64,000 nt of DNA from Rugalucina vietnamica (lineage: Eukaryota > Mollusca > Bivalvia > Lucinida > Lucinidae). Numbering within the stretch: position 1 is the stretch's first letter; every line of letters begins with the position of its first letter. Shown in pieces: positions 2,149-53,310 of this stretch. The stretch spans positions 18,595,957 through 18,659,956 of the forward strand of contig OZ024874.1 of assembly GCA_964017185.1 (NCBI GenBank), in the 5' to 3' direction. A program made the translations under genes and the position numbers. The notes under the pieces are model-generated. The model searched no databases and was not told the origin of the DNA. It saw only the letters and a program-made list of their open reading frames with translations.

Positions 2149-2909
2149 GTAGTATAGGATCTGGAAAATCATTTGGTGGAATTGCTCAGAGCTTGGCTTT
2201 CACAAGGAAAATTGGTAACCGAAGAGGCTCCGAAGGATTACGCAGTTTCAATCCTTCAAAGGGAACAAACTTGTTGATTCTTATTATTTTGGCTGGAGAT
2301 ATCAAAATGAACCCAGGCCCAAGATTCCAGTGCTGCACGTGCAAGAAGTATTGCAAGGCGGCCGAGAAAGCAGTTAAATGTGAAGATTGCGAGAAACGCT
2401 TCCATTCGTCTTGCGTAAATCTTGGTCCCGTTTAGTTACAAAAGATTGTGTCGGTTAATGATTCTTGGTATTGTTCAAACTGCAAAGCCGAGTGCAGCCT
2501 ATGCAGTGGTGCTGTTTTGAATTCCCATAAGGCTGTCCAGTGTGACAAATGTGAAATGTGGGAGCACAATAACTGTTCTTTTATGTCAGACTCAGAGTAT
2601 GAAACAATGCAAAACTCAAACTGTACATGGATTTGCCCAAAATGTGACTTTTTCAATATCTCAGCCTCTTTTTTCAATGAACAGATTAACTTGGAAAGTA
2701 AAAATAGGTTTCACCTACTTGCAAAAGGTCATGAGACCAATTCCACTGAAACCTTGACTAGCAAAAACAGTTTTATTAGTGGTCTGAAATTTTCCAGTAT
2801 CAACATAAACAGTATAAGAGGCAAAAACCTTGAGTTGTTGCCTTCATTGATTTTCATCAATCTCAGATTTTGGCGATTCAGGAGACAAAAATTGACAATT
2901 CCATATTAA
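2109..2909 (+). pseudogene. LINE 5' ORF: 2A-like leader and PHD fingers, interrupted
   Basis: The frame from 2109 runs to a TAG at 2433-2435 and continues in the same frame from 2448 to 2909, so a single nonsense change splits it. About 60 residues precede a hydrophobic run (LLILIILA) and the 2A-like core at residues 63-71. After it come repeated CxxC pairs and a His-Cys pair (FHSSC), then a second cluster ending WICPKC, the pattern of one or two PHD zinc fingers. Fingers of this kind occur in the first ORF of CR1-type LINEs. The last part drifts out of frame into non-homologous sequence where the endonuclease should begin. Presumed role in the intact family: nucleic-acid or chromatin binding by the ribonucleoprotein. 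Confidence 0.7.
2295..2321 (+). other. 2A-like ribosome-skipping motif
   Basis: The translated core is GDIKMNPGP, preceded by an isoleucine/leucine-rich stretch. The functional 2A consensus is DxExNPGP. Here the Glu position is Lys while NPGP is kept. 2A-like sequences at the start of LINE ORFs are known in several invertebrates, where they make the ribosome skip the Gly-Pro bond. Whether the Lys variant is active is unknown. Confidence 0.6.
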
Positions 2910-3527
2910 CGTCTGAATTATTTCCGGAATCTTTTCCATACAGCGTGTACAGAAAGAATAGAACCTTAAATAGTAATGGTGTTATGCTACTTGTGCACAA
3001 GGACATCCCACACATGCCCCTCAGAGAATTGGACAATGACTCAGAGTCAGTTTGGGTCAAACTTTTTGTAAATAAGAAACTCACTTTGTGGCTAGCTGGT
3101 ATCGACCACCTGTCGATGTCCATTTGCAAATGTTCCAGTATCGGACAATGAAAATGACTTACTGAATTCCCTGGAAAAGTTTGACAATTTATTTAGAGAA
3201 CAGCTTGACAAAATCAAAAATAGTAATAAAGGCAACAAACCCCCCTTAATTCACGTTTTAGGTGATTTTAACTTAAGAGATATTGTATGGCCGGACAGAC
3301 TCGGCAAATCTGGGTCATCATTGAGTCGGACGGAGGGTCAGATTTTGATAGATATCATGAATGACCATGGTTTGGAACAATTAGTCAATTTCCCCACCAG
3401 AGACAGAAATACTTTGGACTTAATTTTGACCTCTCTTCCTGGTCAGTTTGTAGACATTCATTCCCCGGATAAGCTCAGTGATCATGACATTGTTTCTGGC
3501 ACATTGAAAATTGCTATCCCCCTGTAA
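2870..3527 (+). pseudogene. LINE AP-endonuclease fragments
   Basis: The frame 2870-3151 starts with QETKID, the usual first active-site motif of AP-type LINE endonucleases (QET), and continues to a premature end. Between 3152 and 3320 the homologous sequence is split over other frames, where a GDFN motif can be seen. The frame 3321-3527 then resumes with the final endonuclease motif SDHD. At least two frameshifts separate the pieces, so no active enzyme can be made. In the intact family this domain nicks target DNA to prime reverse transcription. Confidence 0.75.
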
Positions 3528-4096
3528 AGAAACCTAGGAGAAAAGAGTATCGTTATCAGAAAGGTGATTATGAATCTATGAGAGCAGAAACACTTAAATT
3601 TGCAAAGGAAAGATAATTCAACGGTTACTCAGATACTCGGTCGGCCCAGGAAAATTTCAATCTCATTACATCGTTTATTCAGGAATCGGCAGATAAACAT
3701 ATCCCCTAAAAATCTAGTCGCTCAGTTTTCTCTGTCCCTTGGATAGCACCTGGAATAAGAAGGAAGATTCGCAGAAAAAATGCAACTCATGCAAAAGCTA
3801 AAAAGACTGGTATTGCAAAATTTAGATCTAAATTTGAATCTTTACGGAGAGAAATCAAAGCTGATATCAGGAAGCAGCATGATCTTTACATAAACAACTT
3901 GGTAGGAGATGTTAAGGCTAATCCTAGAGATTTTTACTGGTACATAAACAGTCAGAAAAAAGATACCCAAGGTATACCCCCGTTGAAAAAGAGAAATGGA
4001 TGTGGAATTGCACAATCCGAATTTGAGAAGGCGGAATAATTTAATGGTCAGTTCTCGGATGTTTTCACTAAAAGTGAAAACAAACAGGTCCCTCTT

Positions 4097-5107
4097 ATGG
4101 ATAGATCTGCCCCATTCATGCATGATATTGTGGTCACAGAGGAAGGGGTGACCAAACTTCTAAAAGGTTTAAACCCGTCTAAAGCCTTAGGGCCTGATGA
4201 GCTTCATCCCAGAGTCCTAAAGGAACTGGCTATGGAATTAGGGCCGGTATTCGCCCATCTCTTCCAGCAGTCAATTGATACAGGTGAAATTCCTAAAGAA
4301 TGGTCTCTTGCTAATATTTGCCCCCTATTTAAGAAGGGCGACAGGTCACTTTCCCGCAATTACCGCCCTGTTTCTTTGACATGCATTCCTTGTAAGCTTC
4401 TTGAACATATTGTATGCTCAAATATTATGGCCCATCTTGATGAACATGAACTCTTGTCGGACAGGCAACACGCATTTAGGAAATGGCGTAGCTGTGAAAC
4501 TCAGTTGACTACAGTGATAAATTTCTGGGCAAAAATCTTAGACACTTTTATACTCGATTTTGAAAAGGCTTTCGATACTCCTCCCCATGAACTCCTTAAA
4601 AGCAAATTGTTTAGCTATGGAATAGGTGGTACAACACTGAACTGGATAAAGACAACAAAGGTAGTGGTTAATGGAATTAAATCCGATTGGGCTCCAGTTG
4701 TGTCGGGTGTCCCTCAGGGCACCGTTATCGGCCCCTTGCTGTTCTCCTTGTATATAAATGACATCTCAGCACACATTGAGTCTGAAATAAGACTCTTTGC
4801 TGATGATTGTGTTTGCTATCATGAAATCAAGAATGAAGAGGATACGTTGAAACTTCAGAGAGACATTGATCGCTTAGGCAGTTGGGCTAGGAAATGGGGA
4901 ATGAGATTTCAGATAACCTTATCCCAAAGAATAGGCGTTGTAGAAATCAACACTCTTTGGATTTTCAGATACCTTCAGCTAGCTAAGAAGCGTACAAAAG
5001 TAGTTTCTTTCCATAGACTATCAGGGACTGGAATAACCTTCCTGATTCTCTTATCTCCTCTGCTGAAATGTCTGATGACTGTGTGTCCAAGTTCGCATCT
5101 CTTGTGA
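4097..5107 (+). pseudogene. LINE reverse transcriptase, internally deleted
   Basis: A 336-codon open frame. It holds the RT fingers and palm: NYRPVSLT near residue 93, LDFEKAFD near 157, GVPQGTVIGPLLF near 205 and the catalytic FADD near 235. After about residue 272 the thumb and most of the C-terminal region are missing. The sequence jumps to the last part of the ORF, which is then read out of frame and ends at 5107. The 53.9-54.4 kb fragment contains part of what is missing here. The remaining frame is open but the protein would be truncated. The upstream link 3528-4096 carries homologous but interrupted sequence. Confidence 0.85.
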
Positions 5108-28999: not shown

Positions 29000-29930
29000 A
29001 CGATACTGTGTCTACAACAAAAAGGCGACCAAACTGGATTTCATTTAATACTGGGCATGGTTGAATCACTGTCTTGCCCGGTACATGTCTACATTGTGTT
29101 CTGAAAATGCTAGACAGGCATTCTTATCTAAAATGTATGGCAGTAATATGCAAAGATCTATTGGTGGACAGGAATAATAATTGCAAACCACTGTTTTTGT
29201 TGGTAAATGTCAAATTTCAGAATTTTAATGTAGGGTTTCCTTTTCGTTTGTAAATTATATTTAGTGTGCACTGCTAATTCACAATTTAATCCTTACATTT
29301 GTTTCGGATGGTCTGTTCAATAAACAAATTACAGTGTAATGCATGTGAATAGGATTGGAGCTAGACCGCTAGGGAGTAAAGGATCTCGGAAGATTGCTCA
29401 AGAATGTTTCAAAATCTCAAATTCAAGGCACTGAAACGAAGTTAATTGCAGTCGAAAAATATAAAAGTTTCTATTGTATTTAGACATGAAATGTTTTGTG
29501 TAACTCCAGTAGTGACTTCTTTGAAAATTGGATCATATTGGAAATAGGATTTTTTTTTAAGTCCATGTTCCCCACTTGCCCAATCAAAATATTTATAACA
29601 CAAATGTATTTTTGTAAATGACAAATTATATCAAAATGCCATGTTTGGGCAGAAGAGGGTCGGGGATGGGCTGTCAAAAAGCCCCAAAACCGATAAATGG
29701 GCTCAGATCCATTATTTGTAATGTACCAAGGCTGTGGAAATATACTGTATATGTATGTTCTACCTGAAAGAATAGAGTGCCCCATTTCAACAGTTGTACA
29801 CAGGTGTACACAAAGTGTACACGTTATGATGCATATACATTGTAAATAAAACTGTAAGGATCTTCCCTCGTATACTGAGCGAAATATGTTTAAGGAGGTG
29901 CGGACAAAAAATGTTAATCAATTTTTAATG
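29000..29930. other. No recognised gene
   Basis: AT-rich unique-looking sequence. The minus frame 29480-29785 has no motif or splice context. Confidence 0.4.
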
Positions 29931-30007
29931 GTTTATGTTTTATTAGATAATAAAAATTAAAACTGAGATCCTTTAAGAGCAGTGAACACATTAATGAGAA
30001 AGGGGTT

Positions 30008-30051
30008 GGGCCATACCGCGGTTTCGACTATTAAAGTCTCTTCAGTGACCC
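30008..30051 (-). ncRNA. Hammerhead ribozyme, array unit 1
   Basis: Minus strand order: GGGUCA (stem I 5' side), CUGAAGA, stem II GACU-loop-AGUC, GAAA, CCGCGGUA (two-pair stem III with palindromic CCGCGG), then UGGCCC (stem I 3' side, 6 pairs with one G-U). Predicted cleavage follows the A of GUA, between 30014 and 30013. All core positions are canonical. Confidence 0.85.
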
Positions 30052-30383
30052 TATAGATTTGGCAACATGGAGCCAAAGAGAATTACTGTAATTTTGCAAC
30101 TTTCAACTGGGTAGTCGATACAAAGACTAGTATTATCTAAGTGGGACCAAATATGTTAAACATTGGTTAGTAAATGAATCTTAACCGATAATAAATTTCT
30201 GATTTCTCAGAATATCTTCGCTGATCTCAAAGGACCAAAAAGACAATATAACCTGCACTGTGGATGATGTACAGGGAGACTTTTTAGGGCCGCCACACGG
30301 CACAACACCAGCTGCAGTAATAGCAAATAAAAATTAAAACTGAGATCCTTTAAGAGCAGTGAACAATTAATAAGAAAGGGGAT

Positions 30384-30427
30384 GGGCCATACCGCGGTTT
30401 CGACTATTAAAGTCTCTTCAGTGACCC
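30384..30427 (-). ncRNA. Hammerhead ribozyme, array unit 2
   Basis: Same sequence as unit 1 across the motif: intact CUGAAGA, stem II, GAAA, CCGCGGUA and stem I. Predicted to be active. Confidence 0.85.
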
Positions 30428-30760
30428 TATAGATTTGGCAACATGGAGCCAAAGAGAATTACTGTAATTTTGCAACTTTCAACTGGGTAGTCGATACAAA
30501 GACTAGTATTATCTAAATGGGACCAAATATGTTAAACATTGGTTAGTAAATGAATCTTAACCGATAATAGATTTCTGATTTCTCAGAATATCTTCGCTGA
30601 TCTCAAAGGACTAAAAAGACAATATAACCTGCACTATGGATGATGTACGGGGAGACTTTTTAGGGCCGCCACACGGCACAACACCAGCTGCAGTAATAGC
30701 AAATAAAAATTAAAACTGAGATCCTTTAAGAGCAGTGAATACATTAGTGAGAAAGGGGTT

Positions 30761-30804
30761 GGGCCATACCGCGGTTTCGACTATTAAAGTCTATTCAGTG
30801 ACCC
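30761..30804 (-). ncRNA. Hammerhead ribozyme, unit 3, core-mutated
   Basis: The core reads CUGAAUA rather than CUGAAGA, losing the invariant G8. The stems are otherwise kept. G8 is catalytic in hammerheads, so this copy is probably inactive. Confidence 0.75.
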
Positions 30805-31136
30805 TATAGATTTGGCAACATGGAGCCAAAGAGAATTACTGTAATTTTGCAACTTTCAACTGGGTAGTCGATACAAAGACTAGTATTATCTAAATGGGAC
30901 CAAATATGCTTAACATTGGTTAGTAAATGAATCTTAACCGATAATAAATTTCTGATTTCTCAGAATATCTTCGCTGATCTCAAAGGACCAAAAAGACAAT
31001 ATAACCTGCACTATGGATGATGTACGGGAGACTTTTTAGGGCCGCCACACGGCACAACACCAGCTGCAGTAATAGCAAATACAAATTAAAACTGAGATCC
31101 TTTAAGAGCAGTGAACACATTAATGAGAAAGGGGTT

Positions 31137-31180
31137 GGGCCATACCGCGGTTTCGACTATTAAAGTATCTTCAGTGACCC
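31137..31180 (-). ncRNA. Hammerhead ribozyme, unit 4, stem II mismatch
   Basis: The core is intact, but the first base of stem II is U instead of G (UACU...AGUC), so the pair next to the core is lost. Activity may be reduced. Confidence 0.75.
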
Positions 31181-31513
31181 TATAGATTTGGCAACATGGA
31201 GCCAAAGAGAATTACTGTAATTTTGCAACTTTCAACTGGGTAGTCGATACAAAGACTAGTATTATCTAAATGGGACCAAATATGTTAAACATTGGTTAGT
31301 AAATGAATCTTAACCGATAATAGATTTCTGATTTCTCAGAATATCTTCGCTGATCTCAAAGGACTAAAAAGACAATATAACCTGCACTATGGATGATGTA
31401 CGGGGAGACTTTTTAGGGCCGCCACACGGCACAACACCAGCTGCAGTAATAGCAAATAAAAATTAAAACTGAGATCCTTTAAGAGCAGTGAATACATTAG
31501 TGAGAAAGGGGTT

Positions 31514-31557
31514 GGGCCATACCGCGGTTTCGACTATTAAAGTCTCTTCAGTGACCC
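31514..31557 (-). ncRNA. Hammerhead ribozyme, array unit 5
   Basis: Canonical motif identical to unit 1. Confidence 0.85.
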
Positions 31558-31890
31558 TATAGATTTGGCAACATGGAGCCAAAGAGAATTACTGTAATTT
31601 TGCAACTTTCAACTGGGTAGTCGATACAAAGACTAGTATTATCTAAATGGGACCAAATATGTTTAACATTGGTTAGTAAATGAATCTTAACCGATAATAA
31701 ATTTCTGATTTCTCAGAATATCTTCGCTGATCTCAAAGGACCAAAAAGACAATATAACCTGCACTATGGATGATGTACAGGGAGACTTTTTAGGGCCGCC
31801 ACACGGCACAACACCAGCTGCAGTAATAGCAAATAAAAATTAAAACTGAGATCCTTTAAGAGCAGTGAACACATTAATGAGAAAGGGGTT

Positions 31891-31934
31891 GGGCCATACC
31901 GCGGTTTCGACTATTAAAGTCTCTTCAGTGACCC
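31891..31934 (-). ncRNA. Hammerhead ribozyme, array unit 6
   Basis: Canonical motif identical to unit 1. This unit is truncated further on, at 32113. Confidence 0.85.
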
Positions 31935-32129
31935 TATAGATTTGGCAACATGGAGCCAAAGAGAATTACTGTAATTTTGCAACTTTCAACTGGGTAGTCG
32001 ATACAAAGACTAGTATTATCTAAATGGGACCAAATATCATTGGTAAGTAAATAAATCTTAACCGATAATAAATTTCTGATTTCTCAGAATATCTTCGCTG
32101 ATCTCAAAGGACCATGTTTTATTAGAGTA

Positions 32130-33420
32130 TGTTTCCATGGACTTAAGTTCTAACGTCACATCAGCACCACACAACGACTGGTTTTACCGTTATTTGATAC
32201 ATGCAAGATATTGTCAGAAGAACTTCCCTAATGTCTTAAAACATATGCAGTCACTGTTCAAAGTAAAAGTTGCTTAATTTATAATGCATAGTGTATTTAA
32301 GGTACAAGTGTTAGCAAATGTGTTGGACAGTGTTTTTTGTAGTTATAAATCTGATAAAAATGATGTACCTGTTATTTGTGCATAAAGTTTCTACTCAAAA
32401 ATTTAGGTTGCAATAAGCATATTTGTGTATTTTCTTGATAGTATATGGCAAAACAAAATTGTTTTCTGACAAAACAATTTATTGAACAAAAATCTGACCC
32501 TCTCCCCCTTTGTGTCTTCCAAGGTAAAGTCGGTAAAGTCTGTAAATTTGGTATTGCCAGATGTCTGTCAATCCAATTTGCATTCTTCAGTTCGAACAGT
32601 TCTAAACGTATCTGCTCTTTTACGTCGATCATACATGAAGGTATCCCCTTTTTTGTTTCATAAGCTATGAAAGCCCGCCTCCAATACTCACACACACTTT
32701 AATTTAAACAGATATTTTAGAGGATGATAGTGGACTATTAAAGTCAATTTTAATAAATATCTCTGAATAAATATTTCGTAGAAAGAAACAAGAACTTCTG
32801 AAAAAAGAAGAGATCTTGAAATAATGTTCGGATAAAACCTGTGGAAACGGTGCACCGGAAAAGCTGAGAATCGTGATATATGAGTCAATTTTAATTTCGA
32901 TGTTGGTAGCTAGGTATATCCACATATAAAAAATATTGCTACCTAAACAATTTGCTACTTGAGAGCATATATTGTGTACCCAACCAACACAAATTGCTAC
33001 TTCAGTAGCATTTTGTGTAAGCATTGTACATACTTTCTTCAGTGGACGTACGAGGGTATACAGACTGCTCCACTTGGAAAAAGATTCATGATATAGTTTT
33101 ATATTCAGTCAAATTGACAACTCTTCTTGTTTTTGAACAATCGTCACTGGCAAGAAATGGACAACTGGAGGAATTTGTTCATATAATTTGTTAAGTATGA
33201 GGGTAAATATTTACTCTGTATATCGCAGGCAGCTTACTGTATCTGAACAATTAGATATTGTATACCACAACAGAAGCTGAGGATGAGGTTAGGCGCCTTT
33301 AAAACTAGTTTAACACCCCTCCCCCCCCCCGCCATAATTTTATTACTGACCGTTCCAATGCGATACTTCTATAGTTGCTTGTAATTGTTTTATGTTTTGG
33401 TGTTTAATTTTTGTGCTGTC
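32130..33420. other. No recognised gene
   Basis: A 107-codon minus frame (32372-32695) and a 106-codon one (32704-33024) are open. They have no recognisable domain, signal peptide or exon borders. A local repeat of TTGCTAC occurs at 32935-33010 and a poly-C run at about 33317-33330. Confidence 0.4.
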
Positions 33421-46821: not shown

Positions 46822-49800
46822 TCAAGCTCTTGAAAGGGTGTCTGGAATTATGTTATCTCTACCTTTTATGTGTCTAATGTCAAGATTGTGCTCTTGCAAC
46901 ATGAGACTCCATCTGAGCAAACGCTGATTCTTGTTTTTCATTTTGTGTATGAAGGTCAGTGGATTGTGATCACTGAAGACGACAATTGGTGAATTTGCAG
47001 AAGACAGATACACTTGAAAGTGTCGAAGGGCAAGAATAAGAGATAGACATTCTTTCTCTATAGTAGAATAATTTCTTTGATGTTTGTCAAACTTCTTTGA
47101 AAAGTAACAAACAGGATGATCAACACCATTGTCATCTTCTTGTAACAATACACTGCCTGCACCAACATCACTTGCATCCACCGCCATTTTGAATTCTCTG
47201 TCAAAGCGTGGTGCTGATAGAACTGGAGCACTCTTAAGTATGGCCTTTAACTGATCAAAAGACTTCTGACAAGCCTCAGACCAAACATACCTGACCTTCT
47301 TACCAAGTAAATTTGTCAAAGGCTCAGCTATAACTGAAAAATTATTACAGAACTTTCTGTAATATCCAGCCATACCCAAAAAGCGCATCAGTTGCCGTTT
47401 TCCTGTAGGTACAGGAAAATCTGATATAGCCTCAACTTTGGCTTCTACAGGTCTGACCTGACCTTGTCCAACAATATGTCCTAGAAATGTCAAATTAGCA
47501 TGGCAAAATTCACTTTTCGGTAAGTTTATTGTCAGTTTAGCATCACTGAGTCTTTTGAAGAATTCTCTGATGATCTCCAGGTGTTGTTTCCACTCTTCAC
47601 TGTAGATGATGGCATCGTCGATGTAAGCTTTACACCCATCCAGACCGAAAATCAAACTATTGACCAAGCGAACCAAGCAACATTTCAGCGCTTTCAGTTT
47701 ATTTCGAAATTGTCTTTCTGTAGTAACAAATTCTAAAATCTCCTTTGGACTGTCTGTAAGTGGAATCTGCCAAAACCCTTTCAAAAGATCGAATTTCGTC
47801 ACATATTTGGCGTGACCAAAGTTGTCGATGCAGTCATCAATTCTTGGTATGGGAAATGTGTCAGTTTTTGTGACAGAATTTACTTTTCTATAGTCTGTGC
47901 ACATTCGAAATGTCCCATCAGATTTTGGCACAAGTATACAAGGAGAACTCCATTCACTTTGACTAGGTTCTATAAAGTCATTGTCCAGCAAATACTTAAC
48001 TTCTTTCCTGAGATATTGTTGTCTTTCAGGATGAAGTCTATACGGATGTTGTTTCACCGGTTTTGCTCCTTCAATAATGTCTACATCATGGTAGATTTTA
48101 TCGGTTCTGGATGGAATGTCCGGAAATAAGTGCTCATATTCAAGAATTAATTGTTTTAGTTCATGTTTCTTGTCCGGATCTAGATGTGACAGTTTCTGAT
48201 CGAGGTCATGCAGAATGTCAGAATTCTGGAGTTTTGAGGATAATGGTTCACAGTTCACAGAGTTCATTTCTTCAAAGTCTGTCTGATTTTGTTCATGAGG
48301 GACAGAATTAACTATGCTTACTGAGGAAATAACTGAACTATCATTATCACTATCCCTATCAATGTACTTTTTAAGCATGTTAATATGACATAATTGTTTT
48401 TGCTTGCGCCTCCCAGGAGTGTTAACAATGTAATTTACATCACTTAACCTTTTCTCAACAGTATATGGACCATAATATCTAGCTTGTAATGGCCTGCCAG
48501 GAATGGGCAAAAGAGCAATCACCTTGTCTCCAGGGTCAAAATTTCTGTTCTGAGCATTTTCATCAAAATGCAACTTCATTTTGCTCTGAGCTGACTTAAG
48601 ATTGAACCGAGCAACTTCCCAAGCTTTTGTCAATCTAGTTTTGAAGTCAGACACATACTGAAGTAAGTTCAAAGGACTGTCATTACTTGAAAGAAACTTC
48701 TCTTTCATAAGTTTTAAAGGTCCACGAACAGTGTGTCCGAAAACAAGTTCAAACGGACTGAACCCAAGAGACTCTTCTACTGACTCTCTGACAGCAAATA
48801 ATAGCAAATGTATGCCTTCATCCCAATCTTTTTCGGTGTCAAAACAGTAAGATCTGATCATGTTCTTCAAAGTTTGATGGAATCTTTCCAAAGCACCTTG
48901 ACTTTCAGGATGATAAGCTGATGACTTGTATTGTTTAATGCCAAGTTCATGCATTACTTGCTGAAATGTTCCTGACATAAAATTGGAACCCTGATCTGAT
49001 TGGACTGATTTTGGAAGACCTACAAGTGTGAAAAACTTTACAAGGGCCTTAACTATTGTTTTCGTCTTGATATTCCTGAGTGGAATTGCTTCAGGAAAAC
49101 GTGTTGAAGCACACATTATAGTCAAGAGATATTGGCAACCTGATTTAGTCTTGGGTAACGGACCTACACAGTCAATGATAATCCTACTAAATGGTTCATC
49201 AAATGCAGGAATAGGCTGTAAATTAGCTTTTGGAATAGTCTGATTAGGTTTTCCTACCATTTGACAAGTGTGACAGGATTTGCAATGTTGGGAAACATCA
49301 GATTTTAATCCTGGCCAGTAGAAATGCTTGAGAATTTTGTGGTAAGTCTTATTTATCCCTAAATGACCTGACATGGGAGTTTCATGGGCCAAGTTTAAGA
49401 TTTCAGGACGATAAGCCTTAGGAACCACAATTTGGTGATTTATGGTCCATTCGTCTTCCGCTGAAACATCAGGAGGACGCCATTTTCTCATTAAGATGTC
49501 ATTTTTGACATAAAAACAAACAGGAACCTGAGAAATTTCATTTTCATCTAAAGCCCTTTCAAATAAAGGCGAGATTTCAGGATCACTGTGCTGTTCTTGA
49601 CAAAGTTGTGACCTTGACATTTGGTCGTGACCTTGGTCAAAAATTGAAGGTGAAAGGTCATTGTCTGACCTTTGATTGTCGAAGTCAGTTTGACTTGGAG
49701 AAAGAGATTTTGAAATCTCATCATGAAAAGACTGACCTATAAAAGTGTCAGTTAAGTCAATATCCTGTATCCCATCATTCAATTTGACTTTCTTTGCCAT

Positions 49801-51768
49801 AGCCCTTGTAACGGCACATGAAGGGTAAAGATCAGGAATTTCCTGCTCAATGGGATCAGGCAATTGATCCTCACAAGGTGTATTGGTCAAAAGTGGGTTT
49901 ACCACAACCTTATCTCCGGCTAAGTCATTGCCTAATAGCAAGTGAACACCTTTAAAAGGTAAAGAAGGCCTAATACATACAGCCACAGGACCAGAAACTA
50001 AGTCTGAAGACAAATAAATGTTATGGAGCGGTACATTAACAAATCCACACTCTACTCCCTGAATAAGGACACTTGTCCCAGTTGAAGTCTTCTCGGAAAA
50101 AGGCAGGGTATCTGCTAAAATAAGAGACTGAGAAGCTCCGGTATCTCGTAAGATTTTAATAGGGGTAGACTGGGCAGAATCACTAGTAAGTGACACAAAA
50201 CCTTCTGATAAGAATGGTTCATAAATCTCCATAATACAATCAGTCGCAGACGTTTTGGCCAAAATAGGATTTTCATCCTGAATAATCGACTGTGGTTTTG
50301 ACCTTAAAAAAGTAAGACCTGTTGGTCTAGAATTATTTTGATTTTGTCTCTCTTTTCTTCTTTTCAAAGTTTCACATTCAGAAATGACGTGACCGTCACC
50401 TTTACAATAATTGCAAAACAGCCGGGGTGAGTATGAGGATCTTTGACCTTTGTTTTCACTAGTATCTTTATTTTTAGGATTATGTGAAGGACTGGAACTA
50501 TCAGCTGTTAGTCCAGCTTGTGGTTGTGGATTAGGTTGAGGAGAATTATTTCTCTGTTGAGGGTTAAATGGTTTTGACTGAGGTGTATTAGGTTTAAATT
50601 GAGGGTTAAAAGGTTTCTTGTAAGGCTTATTTACAAAAGACACCTTATGAGTCAAAGCATAATCATCAGCTAATCGTGCTGCTACATCTAAAGTTTCTAC
50701 TTCCCTTTCGTCAAGAAAAGATTTGACATCAGAGTGTATGCATCGTTTGAACTCTTCAACAAGCATGAGCTGTCTTAATTTTGCATGATCAGACTTTACA
50801 TCCTTTGAAGAACACCACCTATCAAATAATTGCTCCTTAGTTCTAGCAAATTCTACATGGGTTTGATCATGTTCTTTCCTACAATTTCTGAATTTCTGCC
50901 TATAAGCTTCAGGTACTAACTCATAAGCCTTAAGAATCAGATTTTTGACTGTGTCATAATCTGAACTTTGATCAAGTGGAAGCTGAGTGTAAATTTCTCG
51001 AGCTTTACCAATAACAACACTCTGTAGAAGCAAGGTCCAATGCTCTTTTGGCCATTTCAAATTTTCTGCTACCTTCTCAAAATGTAAAAAGTACTTATCT
51101 ACTTCTTTTTCTTGAAATGGAGGAACGAGCCTGATATGTTTTGTAACATCAAATACTTTACTAGGATCAAAAGACACAGGAGGCAATGATTTACTGCTTA
51201 ATTCAAGCTCTTTCATTTTTATCTCATAATGCATTTTCTCTTTTTCAAGTTCTACTCTTTCTAACATTTCTCTGTGTTTTTCCTTCTCTCGTTCTTCCAT
51301 TTCCCTTTGTTTTTCCTTCTCTCTTTCTTCCATATCTATTTTTTCCTTTGCAAGCCTTTCTTCTAACTCTCTTTGTTTTTCTCTTTCCCTTTCTTCAAAT
51401 GCTAACTTTTGTTTTTCAAGCTCTAACTTTTCTTTTTGCATTCTTTCTTCCCTTTCTTCCTTATCTGCCCTTCTTTTTTCTTCAAATTCTAATCTTAATT
51501 TTTCCAGTTCAAGATGCCTTTTTAATTCTAACTCTTTCAACTGTATGTCGGTTTGTGAGACCATAATTAGAGATGTAGCTGAGGGTTCAAAAAATTCCTC
51601 ATCAACAAGAAACTGAATGATAACATTCTTAATTTCACGTTTTAACATAGATGTTTTGACATCAGGTATGCTATAATGACTAGCAATGTCTAAAAGATCA
51701 CTCTTTTTGGCCAAGTTTAACAGCTCTTGAGAAGGCGCAGCAATGAAATCTTCAAGTTTGAATGACAT
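46822..51768 (-). CDS. Gag-pol polyprotein of gypsy-group element
   Basis: One open frame of 1648 codons from ATG at 51768. An upstream in-frame TTG at 51792 was not used. Approximate order: Lys/Glu-rich coiled coil (80-195), capsid-like region (210-395), one CCHC knuckle CNYCKGDGHVISEC (about 451), protease DTGA (about 543), H2C2 integrase zinc finger (795-835), integrase D-D-E (about 863, 923, 959), a GPY/F-like module with YYGPYTV (about 1099), reverse transcriptase (1255-1435, YIDD at 1382-1385) and RNase H (1520-1648). The protein supplies packaging, cDNA synthesis and integration. Oddity: the conserved RT motif around the FG-x-x-NAP-x-x-F region (about 1345-1365) is absent and about six residues short, so RT may be inactive although the frame is open. 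Confidence 0.9.
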   Translation of the reverse strand: MSFKLEDFIAAPSQELLNLAKKSDLLDIASHYSIPDVKTSMLKREIKNVIIQFLVDEEFFEPSATSLIMVSQTDIQLKELELKRHLELEKLRLEFEEKRRADKEEREERMQKEKLELEKQKLAFEEREREKQRELEERLAKEKIDMEEREKEKQREMEEREKEKHREMLERVELEKEKMHYEIKMKELELSSKSLPPVSFDPSKVFDVTKHIRLVPPFQEKEVDKYFLHFEKVAENLKWPKEHWTLLLQSVVIGKAREIYTQLPLDQSSDYDTVKNLILKAYELVPEAYRQKFRNCRKEHDQTHVEFARTKEQLFDRWCSSKDVKSDHAKLRQLMLVEEFKRCIHSDVKSFLDEREVETLDVAARLADDYALTHKVSFVNKPYKKPFNPQFKPNTPQSKPFNPQQRNNSPQPNPQPQAGLTADSSSPSHNPKNKDTSENKGQRSSYSPRLFCNYCKGDGHVISECETLKRRKERQNQNNSRPTGLTFLRSKPQSIIQDENPILAKTSATDCIMEIYEPFLSEGFVSLTSDSAQSTPIKILRDTGASQSLILADTLPFSEKTSTGTSVLIQGVECGFVNVPLHNIYLSSDLVSGPVAVCIRPSLPFKGVHLLLGNDLAGDKVVVNPLLTNTPCEDQLPDPIEQEIPDLYPSCAVTRAMAKKVKLNDGIQDIDLTDTFIGQSFHDEISKSLSPSQTDFDNQRSDNDLSPSIFDQGHDQMSRSQLCQEQHSDPEISPLFERALDENEISQVPVCFYVKNDILMRKWRPPDVSAEDEWTINHQIVVPKAYRPEILNLAHETPMSGHLGINKTYHKILKHFYWPGLKSDVSQHCKSCHTCQMVGKPNQTIPKANLQPIPAFDEPFSRIIIDCVGPLPKTKSGCQYLLTIMCASTRFPEAIPLRNIKTKTIVKALVKFFTLVGLPKSVQSDQGSNFMSGTFQQVMHELGIKQYKSSAYHPESQGALERFHQTLKNMIRSYCFDTEKDWDEGIHLLLFAVRESVEESLGFSPFELVFGHTVRGPLKLMKEKFLSSNDSPLNLLQYVSDFKTRLTKAWEVARFNLKSAQSKMKLHFDENAQNRNFDPGDKVIALLPIPGRPLQARYYGPYTVEKRLSDVNYIVNTPGRRKQKQLCHINMLKKYIDRDSDNDSSVISSVSIVNSVPHEQNQTDFEEMNSVNCEPLSSKLQNSDILHDLDQKLSHLDPDKKHELKQLILEYEHLFPDIPSRTDKIYHDVDIIEGAKPVKQHPYRLHPERQQYLRKEVKYLLDNDFIEPSQSEWSSPCILVPKSDGTFRMCTDYRKVNSVTKTDTFPIPRIDDCIDNFGHAKYVTKFDLLKGFWQIPLTDSPKEILEFVTTERQFRNKLKALKCCLVRLVNSLIFGLDGCKAYIDDAIIYSEEWKQHLEIIREFFKRLSDAKLTINLPKSEFCHANLTFLGHIVGQGQVRPVEAKVEAISDFPVPTGKRQLMRFLGMAGYYRKFCNNFSVIAEPLTNLLGKKVRYVWSEACQKSFDQLKAILKSAPVLSAPRFDREFKMAVDASDVGAGSVLLQEDDNGVDHPVCYFSKKFDKHQRNYSTIEKECLSLILALRHFQVYLSSANSPIVVFSDHNPLTFIHKMKNKNQRLLRWSLMLQEHNLDIRHIKGRDNIIPDTLSRA

Positions 51769-51838
51769 GGTTGCTTTTTGCTGGTATGACAAACAATAAA
51801 TATCTTTTCAAATTCAGAATAAAATAGATGCACAAAAT

Positions 51839-52690: not shown

Positions 52691-53035
52691 GACGAACAAA
52701 CACAGTGCACAGCATAAATCGCGGCGGGTATCCATAACGGAATCGACGGGATCAAATCGCTTTTTCCGGCGCCTACGGGACCAGCAACGGAGCCTACGGG
52801 AATTCTGTTGATGAAGTTGACCATAAACGCTACTTCAGCGGAAGATTTGTTTTAGATAAAAAGTAAGGTTATTGTATATACTAGTCCTCGAGACCCCGAA
52901 CATATCAGGCTTATTACTTTTGTACAGAAAACTGCTGTTTAAGACGATGAACCAAAAACGGTACTTTTTCCACCCTACATGTCTACAGGCTAAAAGAAAG
53001 GTCCTATAAAACATTTTTTATTGCTTTTTATCCCG
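52691..53035. other. No recognised gene
   Basis: A GC-richer patch (52715-52805) with repeated GCCTACGGGA words. No open frame of note. Confidence 0.4.
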
Positions 53036-53044
53036 TATTCCATC

Positions 53045-53310
53045 CATAGTGCAGGTTATACTTTCGTTTTGGTCCTTTGAGATCAGCGAGGATATTCTGA
53101 GAAATCAGAAATTTATCATCGGTCTTACCAATGTTGAATATATTTGGTCCCATTTAGATAATACTAGTCTTTGTATCGACTACCTTGATGAAAGTTGCAA
53201 AATTTCAGTAATTCTCATTGGCTCCATGTTGCCAAATCTAAAGGGCCACTGAAGAGACTTTAATAGTCGAAATCGCGGTATGGCCCATCCACTTTCTCAT
53301 TAATGACCAA
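53045..53310 (+). repeat. Hammerhead-repeat family, single copy on plus strand
   Basis: About 265 bp of one unit of the 29.9-32.1 kb family in opposite orientation, ending shortly after the ribozyme. Confidence 0.85.
53243..53286 (+). ncRNA. Hammerhead ribozyme, plus-strand copy
   Basis: GGGCCA, CUGAAGA, GACU-loop-AGUC, GAAA, UCGCGGUA, UGGCCC. Stem I is fully Watson-Crick here (GGGCCA/UGGCCC), where the array copies have one G-U pair. The core is intact. The first stem III pair next to GAAA is weakened (U opposite G). Predicted cleavage after GUA at 53280/53281. Confidence 0.8.

Follow-up and report, generated by a model that had tools for sequence, protein, structure and literature searches.

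A hammerhead retrozyme array in the bivalve Rugalucina vietnamica and the internal 3' end shared by its sister copies

A stretch of 64,000 nucleotides of the lucinid bivalve Rugalucina vietnamica, referred to here as the window, contains a short tandem array with a hammerhead-like motif in every repeat, and the locus raises the question of what kind of element this is and how it came to be copied and inserted there. TRF placed the array at 29949-32114, with a period of 377, 5.8 copies and 97% matches, and its five complete units measure 376-377 bp each; the original prediction was right in counting six units and set their length slightly too low, at about 375 bp. The GC content is 0.385 (over 30001-32000) and none of the stop-to-stop frames of at least 120 aa reaches into the array. 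With unit phase 1 defined as the first base past the predicted ribozyme cut, the array runs from an RNA 5' end at 32113 to an RNA 3' end at 29949, which is unit phase 65 (Table 1). Elsewhere in the window, a 1661-aa stop-to-stop retrotransposon frame (46822-51807, minus strand) has SCAN, H2C2 and integrase ahead of reverse transcriptase and RNase H, an order inverted relative to that normally seen in Gypsy, and presumably belongs under the names Gypsy or Gmr1-like; LINE-like remnants with a PHD-finger frame and a reverse transcriptase frame lie at 2436-5107 on the plus strand.

Table 1. Positions in the window of the array, its flanking repeats, its ribozyme cores and a second copy
Feature	Position	Strand	Remark
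Left target-site duplication ATGTTTTATTAGA	29935..29947		13 bp; single in 10/10 empty-site paralogues
Retrozyme array	29949..32113	-	5.8 laps of the 377-nt unit
Terminal 17-mer CAGTTTTAATTTTTATT	29949..29965	-	RNA 3' end, phases 49-65; putative start of reverse transcription
Unit 1 core	30008..30051	-	Intact; predicted cut between 30014 and 30013
Unit 2 core	30384..30427	-	Intact
Unit 3 core	30761..30804	-	G8 changed to U
Unit 4 core	31137..31180	-	Mismatch at stem II base
Unit 5 core	31514..31557	-	Intact
Unit 6 core	31891..31934	-	Intact
Right target-site duplication ATGTTTTATTAGA	32114..32126		13 bp; second copy of the same 13-mer
Partial, diverged second retrozyme copy	53032..53305	+	Core intact by motif

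On the minus strand, each unit carries, exactly or as a near match, the order GGGTCA-CTGANGA-GACT-TTAAT-AGTC-GAAA-CCGCGG-TA-TGGCCC, a 44-nt core with GGGTCA/TGGCCC as stem I, CTGANGA, GACT/AGTC as stem II, GAAA, a tiny palindromic stem III (ACCGCGGU) and TA at the cut. By motif, a type I hammerhead core is present in 6/6 units, as had been predicted for every unit of this strand, and is intact in four. The unit-by-unit reading given at the outset also holds, since units 1, 2, 5 and 6 were found with a complete core and with every pair of stems I and II, unit 3 has lost G8 by a change to U, and unit 4 has its stem II mismatch at the stem base. A chance origin of the core is excluded, because the full core pattern occurs 1,742 times (875+867) in the 1,089,854,562 bases (47 contigs) of the genome searched and never (0+0) in a reversed control; a tighter core pattern had 0 matches in viral contigs. 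Within the window, the loose motif CTGANGA-N6-30-GAAA was found 13 times against 4.87 expected, the largest of 100 shuffles giving 12.

The covariance-model search, which the original prediction had itself named as capable of refuting it, came out against it: the Rfam hammerhead models gave no match at the gathering score across the window and none up to E=10 across 29900-32200, where the eight weak matches belonged to other families, six of them to the hairpin-ribozyme model (17.1 bits, the cut-off being 65). By analogy with mussel retrozyme hammerheads, which according to the available part of the study of Cervera and de la Pena (2020; PMC7229834) are without most conserved loop nucleotides, the miss may be explained by the absence of such nucleotides. 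The predicted fold of the unit 2 core region was not better than shuffles (z -1.10). Stem pairing across the collected cores (L018, L067 and L102 left out) was little above that of shuffles, 0.948 against 0.941, a value reached by 6 of 2,000 shuffles with relatedness uncorrected, and compensatory change was confined to one stem II pair, in 7 of about 212 cores. Selection on the hammerhead was considered and rejected: in the best-matching copies it shows 3.8% mismatch against 3.0% elsewhere (rank 251 of 377 windows compared) and is no less variable than the remainder, and its low rate in core-selected and high rate in tail-selected loci are selection bias and count neither way.

The 13-bp repeat flanking the array is a true target-site duplication, since the 13-mer position is found once in all ten empty-site paralogues fetched, and the original claim that these repeats are an insertion duplication is in this way borne out. 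The joined flanks with one 13-mer match at least 38 other places of the genome across the junction (43 matches, comprising these 38, the window's own two flanks and three short pieces, with 40 of 1,253 candidates scored). Both window copies of the 13-mer carry an A (TTAGA) where the ten paralogues have T (TTGA); this A, present in both copies and absent from all ten paralogues, suggests that the target probably carried it before it was duplicated. Satellite DNA formed by unequal exchange is not known to have insertion ends or a target-site duplication, and the present locus departs from that expectation. The possibility that the array is ordinary satellite DNA produced by unequal crossing-over, with an incidental hammerhead, would agree with the copying at two- and three-unit lags seen in the window array and in a second locus (L012); we nevertheless regard it as very improbable, given the true duplication, the one common 3' end of scattered copies and the existence of sub-unit copies down to about 20 nt. 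Unequal exchange is thus refuted as the origin by the empty sites and stands as a later modifier.

At other loci, flank match scores of at least 8 were obtained in 26/94 cases against 15.35 expected, and of at least 10 in 11/94 against 1.69 expected (94 of 101 loci used), so that clear duplication is confined to a minority. Several of the strongest flank matches are insertions into tandem repeats, and five retrozymes of this sort (L059, L077, L047, L094 and L087) mimic very long target-site duplications; a long duplication as a general rule was rejected, because the long matches are tandem repeats around the insertion. Over the 20 nt that directly follow the insertion in the 3' flank, the AT content is 0.671, compared with 0.625 at 51-200 (77 insertions, being 77 of the 88 loci kept after 13 of 101 were left out). 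A weak target-site signature was noticed in the same 77, with G at +3 past the insertion in 1% against 18% in the background and T enriched at +1. Two copies (L012 and L089, of 8.1 and 1.3 laps) occupy nearly the same site of paralogous sequence with different 5' ends. With a 377-bp low-GC tandem unit (the class range being 150-450 bp), dispersal in many copies and a duplication longer than 4 bp, the element is almost certainly a metazoan non-LTR retrozyme of a known kind, and the initial reading as a retrozyme array is sustained by the 1,742 genomic cores together with the 13-bp duplication and its single-copy empty sites.

How such elements are copied can be read from the ends of sister copies, for which four samples of loci were used: the 39 best-matching other loci; 60 loci taken by the core pattern, in listed order, from the first 47 Mb of contig 1 (L035 passed over); 16 loci with a 23-nt tail and no exact core nearby; and 12 loci with a 17-nt tail that were missing from the 23-nt list. 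The core-selected sample requires an intact core and leans toward longer copies, and the make-up of the two tail samples (16 + 12 loci) differs from that of all copies. For ends and lengths, six of the 60 were dropped, two as segmental duplicates (L067, L102) and four for odd ends or a cut at the fetch edge (L065, L080, L106, L103). The 3' end falls at phase 61-70 in 53/60 contig-1 loci (50/54 with the six dropped) and at phase 61-73 in 36/39 best-matching loci, the window array included and L018 and the partial copy dropped. The terminal 17-mer CAGTTTTAATTTTTATT, which forms the 3' end of most sister copies, has 2,715 copies in the genome against 3 for the reversed control. In two samples the tail varies a little less than the remainder of the unit, with 1.6% mismatch in the best-matching copies against 3.0% elsewhere and 5.1% against 8.3% in the core-selected sample (ranks 77 and 66 of 377 windows). 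About the last 17-50 nt alone were kept in 9/28 tail-picked loci (5/16 + 4/12), the shortest of which (17-18 nt) could partly be chance, the control count being 3 against 2,715. That the tail was borrowed from another family was considered and set aside, as the tail-only loci look like 5'-truncated retrozymes. One diverged retrozyme (L139) matches the common tail in its last 18 nt and differs in the preceding stretch.

The 5' ends, by comparison, are spread round the unit with no departure from uniformity (KS p=0.21, 54 loci); 4/90 lie within a few nt of the cut against 1.67 expected, and from this slight excess some linear templates are possible. Copy lengths, from 93 to 1413 nt in 53 loci, are consistent with an exponential (KS D=0.061, Monte-Carlo p=0.956). 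The stop rate, counted per 94 nt, is 0.24-0.32 for the first three bins (to 379 nt) and 0.21-0.27 for the three that follow, the bins past the sixth holding eight copies or fewer each; it shows no jump at the end of lap 1. Copies range in size from about 20 nt to 10.5 laps, and in contig 1 the loci under one lap (37/60) outnumber those over one lap (23/60). We have little doubt that reverse transcription has one fixed internal start. A fixed 3' end with 5' truncation is a LINE-like feature too, and the LINE-like remnants in the window include a PHD finger and a reverse transcriptase, so a LINE-type reverse transcriptase recognising the RNA tail, as in LINE-dependent SINEs, has to be weighed; it seems unlikely to us, given that copying begins within the unit, 65 nt beyond the cut, and not at the 3' end that the ribozyme would make.

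A fixed internal start leaves the form of the template to be considered. A linear RNA cut by the ribozyme would span phase 1 to 377, and the copies run back from phase 65 through the 1|377 junction, which means that the template was either uncut there or rejoined. Units diverge by 1.15% within arrays (128 pairs) against 4.38% between arrays (3,527 pairs), as computed from 86 units of 36 loci with one segmental duplicate included. In the longest array (L027, 10.5 laps), nine variants are present in every lap that covers their position, four others being private, and its ten units differ by 0-2 positions among the 28 of 45 pairs listed. In a BLAST of 400-nt flanks from 101 loci, only three pairs had a common 5' flank reaching a junction of equal phase, and in all three the 3' flank was common too, so that the 5' junctions gave no sign of a source flank carried along. 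A flanking repeat shared between loci was rejected as a possible helper, as it lies on either side of the insertions and in either orientation. Near-clonal units and the lack of a source flank fit what the copying of one circle would give, and a circular RNA is the probable template.

The same internally starting enzyme could also have used, with no circle, a linear uncut multimeric transcript of an existing array, which would likewise give a fixed start and several laps. In the available part of the work on the Anolis Penelope-like element (Frangieh et al., 2024; PMC11167929), the RNA that serves as template in vitro is mainly unprocessed and hammerhead mutants leave insertion unaffected, which favours such a template. 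Several features of the present copies weigh the other way: since 37/60 contig-1 loci are under one lap, a copy of 10.5 laps would need a rare source; there is no common source flank at the 5' junction; the arrays are near-clonal; and 4/6 window ribozymes look intact by motif, so that a multimer would be expected to be cut. We therefore hold the uncut multimer to be a rather doubtful alternative to the circle.

The window array itself is not an untouched record of copying. Its five full units differ by 1-10 substitutions in 377 between pairs; four variants are common to laps 2 and 4, a fifth is common to laps 1 and 3, all being absent from the other laps, and a 378-nt stretch is identical at a two-unit lag. 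These lap-shared variants and this identity suggest that part of the array was probably copied later at the DNA level, and the six window units are not six untouched laps. The insertion itself stands, and the wording "recently inserted" in the original prediction has to be taken as relative, given the 1-10 differences in 377 among the window units against 0-2 in L027 (28 of 45 pairs listed). The 8.1-lap copy (L012) shows an imperfect three-unit-lag pattern, and in two further loci (L040, L015) a few variants are common to some laps only; the lag patterns of the window array and L012 are read as later DNA-level exchange. Dimeric or trimeric circles were rejected as the source of the periodic units, since in the window array the pattern stops short of the ends and in L012 it is imperfect, which later DNA-level copying fits better. 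A related retrozyme array at C7:49699657-49704050 has matches alternating at about 365 and 1,004 bp (period of about 1,367), as if made of two unit kinds.

As for the enzyme, an internal start past a hammerhead has been described in vitro. According to the available part of the same Anolis study (PMC11167929), the Penelope-like element starts reverse transcription inside its RNA, at a site without homology to the cut DNA; initiation is mostly 111-118 nt into the ORF and the hammerhead cut 26 nt into it, which by subtraction places the start about 85-92 nt past the cut against about 65 nt here. From this internal initiation past the hammerhead of a Penelope-like element, we propose a Penelope-type enzyme for the retrozyme, an analogy that we favour only slightly over the contrary. 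The internal start past the hammerhead that such machinery would be expected to leave is what the genomic ends of the retrozyme suggest. The genome itself has at least 150 GIY-YIG matches (150 of 451 candidates scored), several in long frames and in tandem at about 3,892-bp spacing; Penelope-like open frames reach 977 aa, and some occur in opposite-strand pairs. In one of these elements (L146, C15:424900-430100), two laps are 99.6% identical over 1,178 nt, a 951-aa frame contains reverse transcriptase and GIY-YIG, and a hammerhead-like motif with palindromic GCGCGC precedes the frame. Of the copies of this family, three end 48 nt and two 157 nt past the predicted cut, all five in (TA)n, and a further fetched piece, the sixth, stops short of its end; a second Penelope-like family ends in a TA run in 6/7 copies. 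Internal starts past a hammerhead-like motif thus seem to exist in both kinds of element of this genome.

Apart from one neighbouring retrozyme array, no sequence common to the retrozyme was found in 20 fetched Penelope-like 3' regions, and 0/77 retrozyme insertions have a (TA)n target, whereas the visible Penelope-like ends lie mostly in (TA)n. We infer both the circle and the enzyme, and because of these two results our claim is limited to a class of mechanism and does not extend to a partner. The neighbouring retrozyme and Penelope-like element (L159) were considered as a template-switch chimera and read instead as nested, since the element ends in (TA)n like the run inside the retrozyme unit and no further Penelope-like 3' region follows past the retrozyme, a reading based on one side of the Penelope-like element. 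At another locus (L166, C3:70914559-70917859), a Penelope-like element seems to have entered a diverged retrozyme unit at a TA run.

Considering these observations together, we hypothesize that the ribozyme would cut the unit RNA, which would then close into a circle or stay as an uncut multimer; that a reverse transcriptase, possibly of Penelope type, would be primed at the nicked target DNA and begin each time at one internal site, about 65 nt beyond the predicted cut; that it would travel round the template, equally likely to fall off at every point; and that its product would be joined to the target. Later DNA-level copying would have altered some arrays, that of the window included. As a whole, this explanation (retrozyme, internal start, RNA circle or uncut multimer, and Penelope-type enzyme) appears to us reasonably likely. 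Its extension to animal retrozymes at large, as elements moved by rolling-circle target-primed reverse transcription with a Penelope-type enzyme, a fixed internal site and constant fall-off, each array being a clonal, self-dating record of a circle, is more tentative, and we would not yet favour it.

Part of this scheme has been put forward before. The available part of PMC7229834 proposes that primed circles give tandem cDNA and names Penelope-like elements as a strong candidate helper, so this idea is not new here; the available part of PMC7761336 describes metazoan retrozyme repeats as having no conserved motif that would reveal a helper retrotransposon. Among the papers listed by the literature searches, no title or displayed abstract was found tying retrozymes to internal initiation, and the words retrozyme, circular and circRNA are absent from the main text of PMC11167929. 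What is new here is the fixed start, together with the length law and the near-clonality of the arrays. As far as the accessible portions of these papers go, mussel-type non-LTR retrozymes (Cervera and de la Pena, 2020; PMC7229834) have the same type I hammerhead and short low-GC tandem repeats (350-390 bp in mussel), likewise thousands of copies, and duplications longer than 4 bp when present. For them expression, circles and cleavage were demonstrated, all three being putative for the window element; the fixed 3' end, the length law and near-clonal arrays, described here, do not appear in the portion of that paper available. Penelope-like elements with hammerheads (Frangieh et al., 2024; PMC11167929), as far as presented there, have the same tandem arrays, hammerhead and internal start downstream of the cut, but encode reverse transcriptase and GIY-YIG, and the window retrozyme has no long protein. 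The hammerhead repeats of axolotl and newt, as outlined in PMC7229834, share the very short stem III with a palindromic loop and work better as a dimer; the window core differs in having CCGCGG between GAAA and UA. Plant LTR retrozymes, in the parts of PMC7761336 and PMC7229834 at hand, also have hammerhead circles as proposed intermediates, but differ from the present element in their LTRs, tRNA primer site, type III hammerheads and 4-bp duplications.

For the retrozymes of this bivalve, the 3' end that the copies have in common, about 65 nt beyond the ribozyme cut, is a feature of the kind from which a helper could be deduced, and it names a testable RNA site and enzyme class. Both the memoryless length law and the near-clonality of the arrays are marks that copying round a template has left in the genome; the divergence between laps could date insertions, as the divergence of LTRs does, where later DNA-level exchange has not blurred it.
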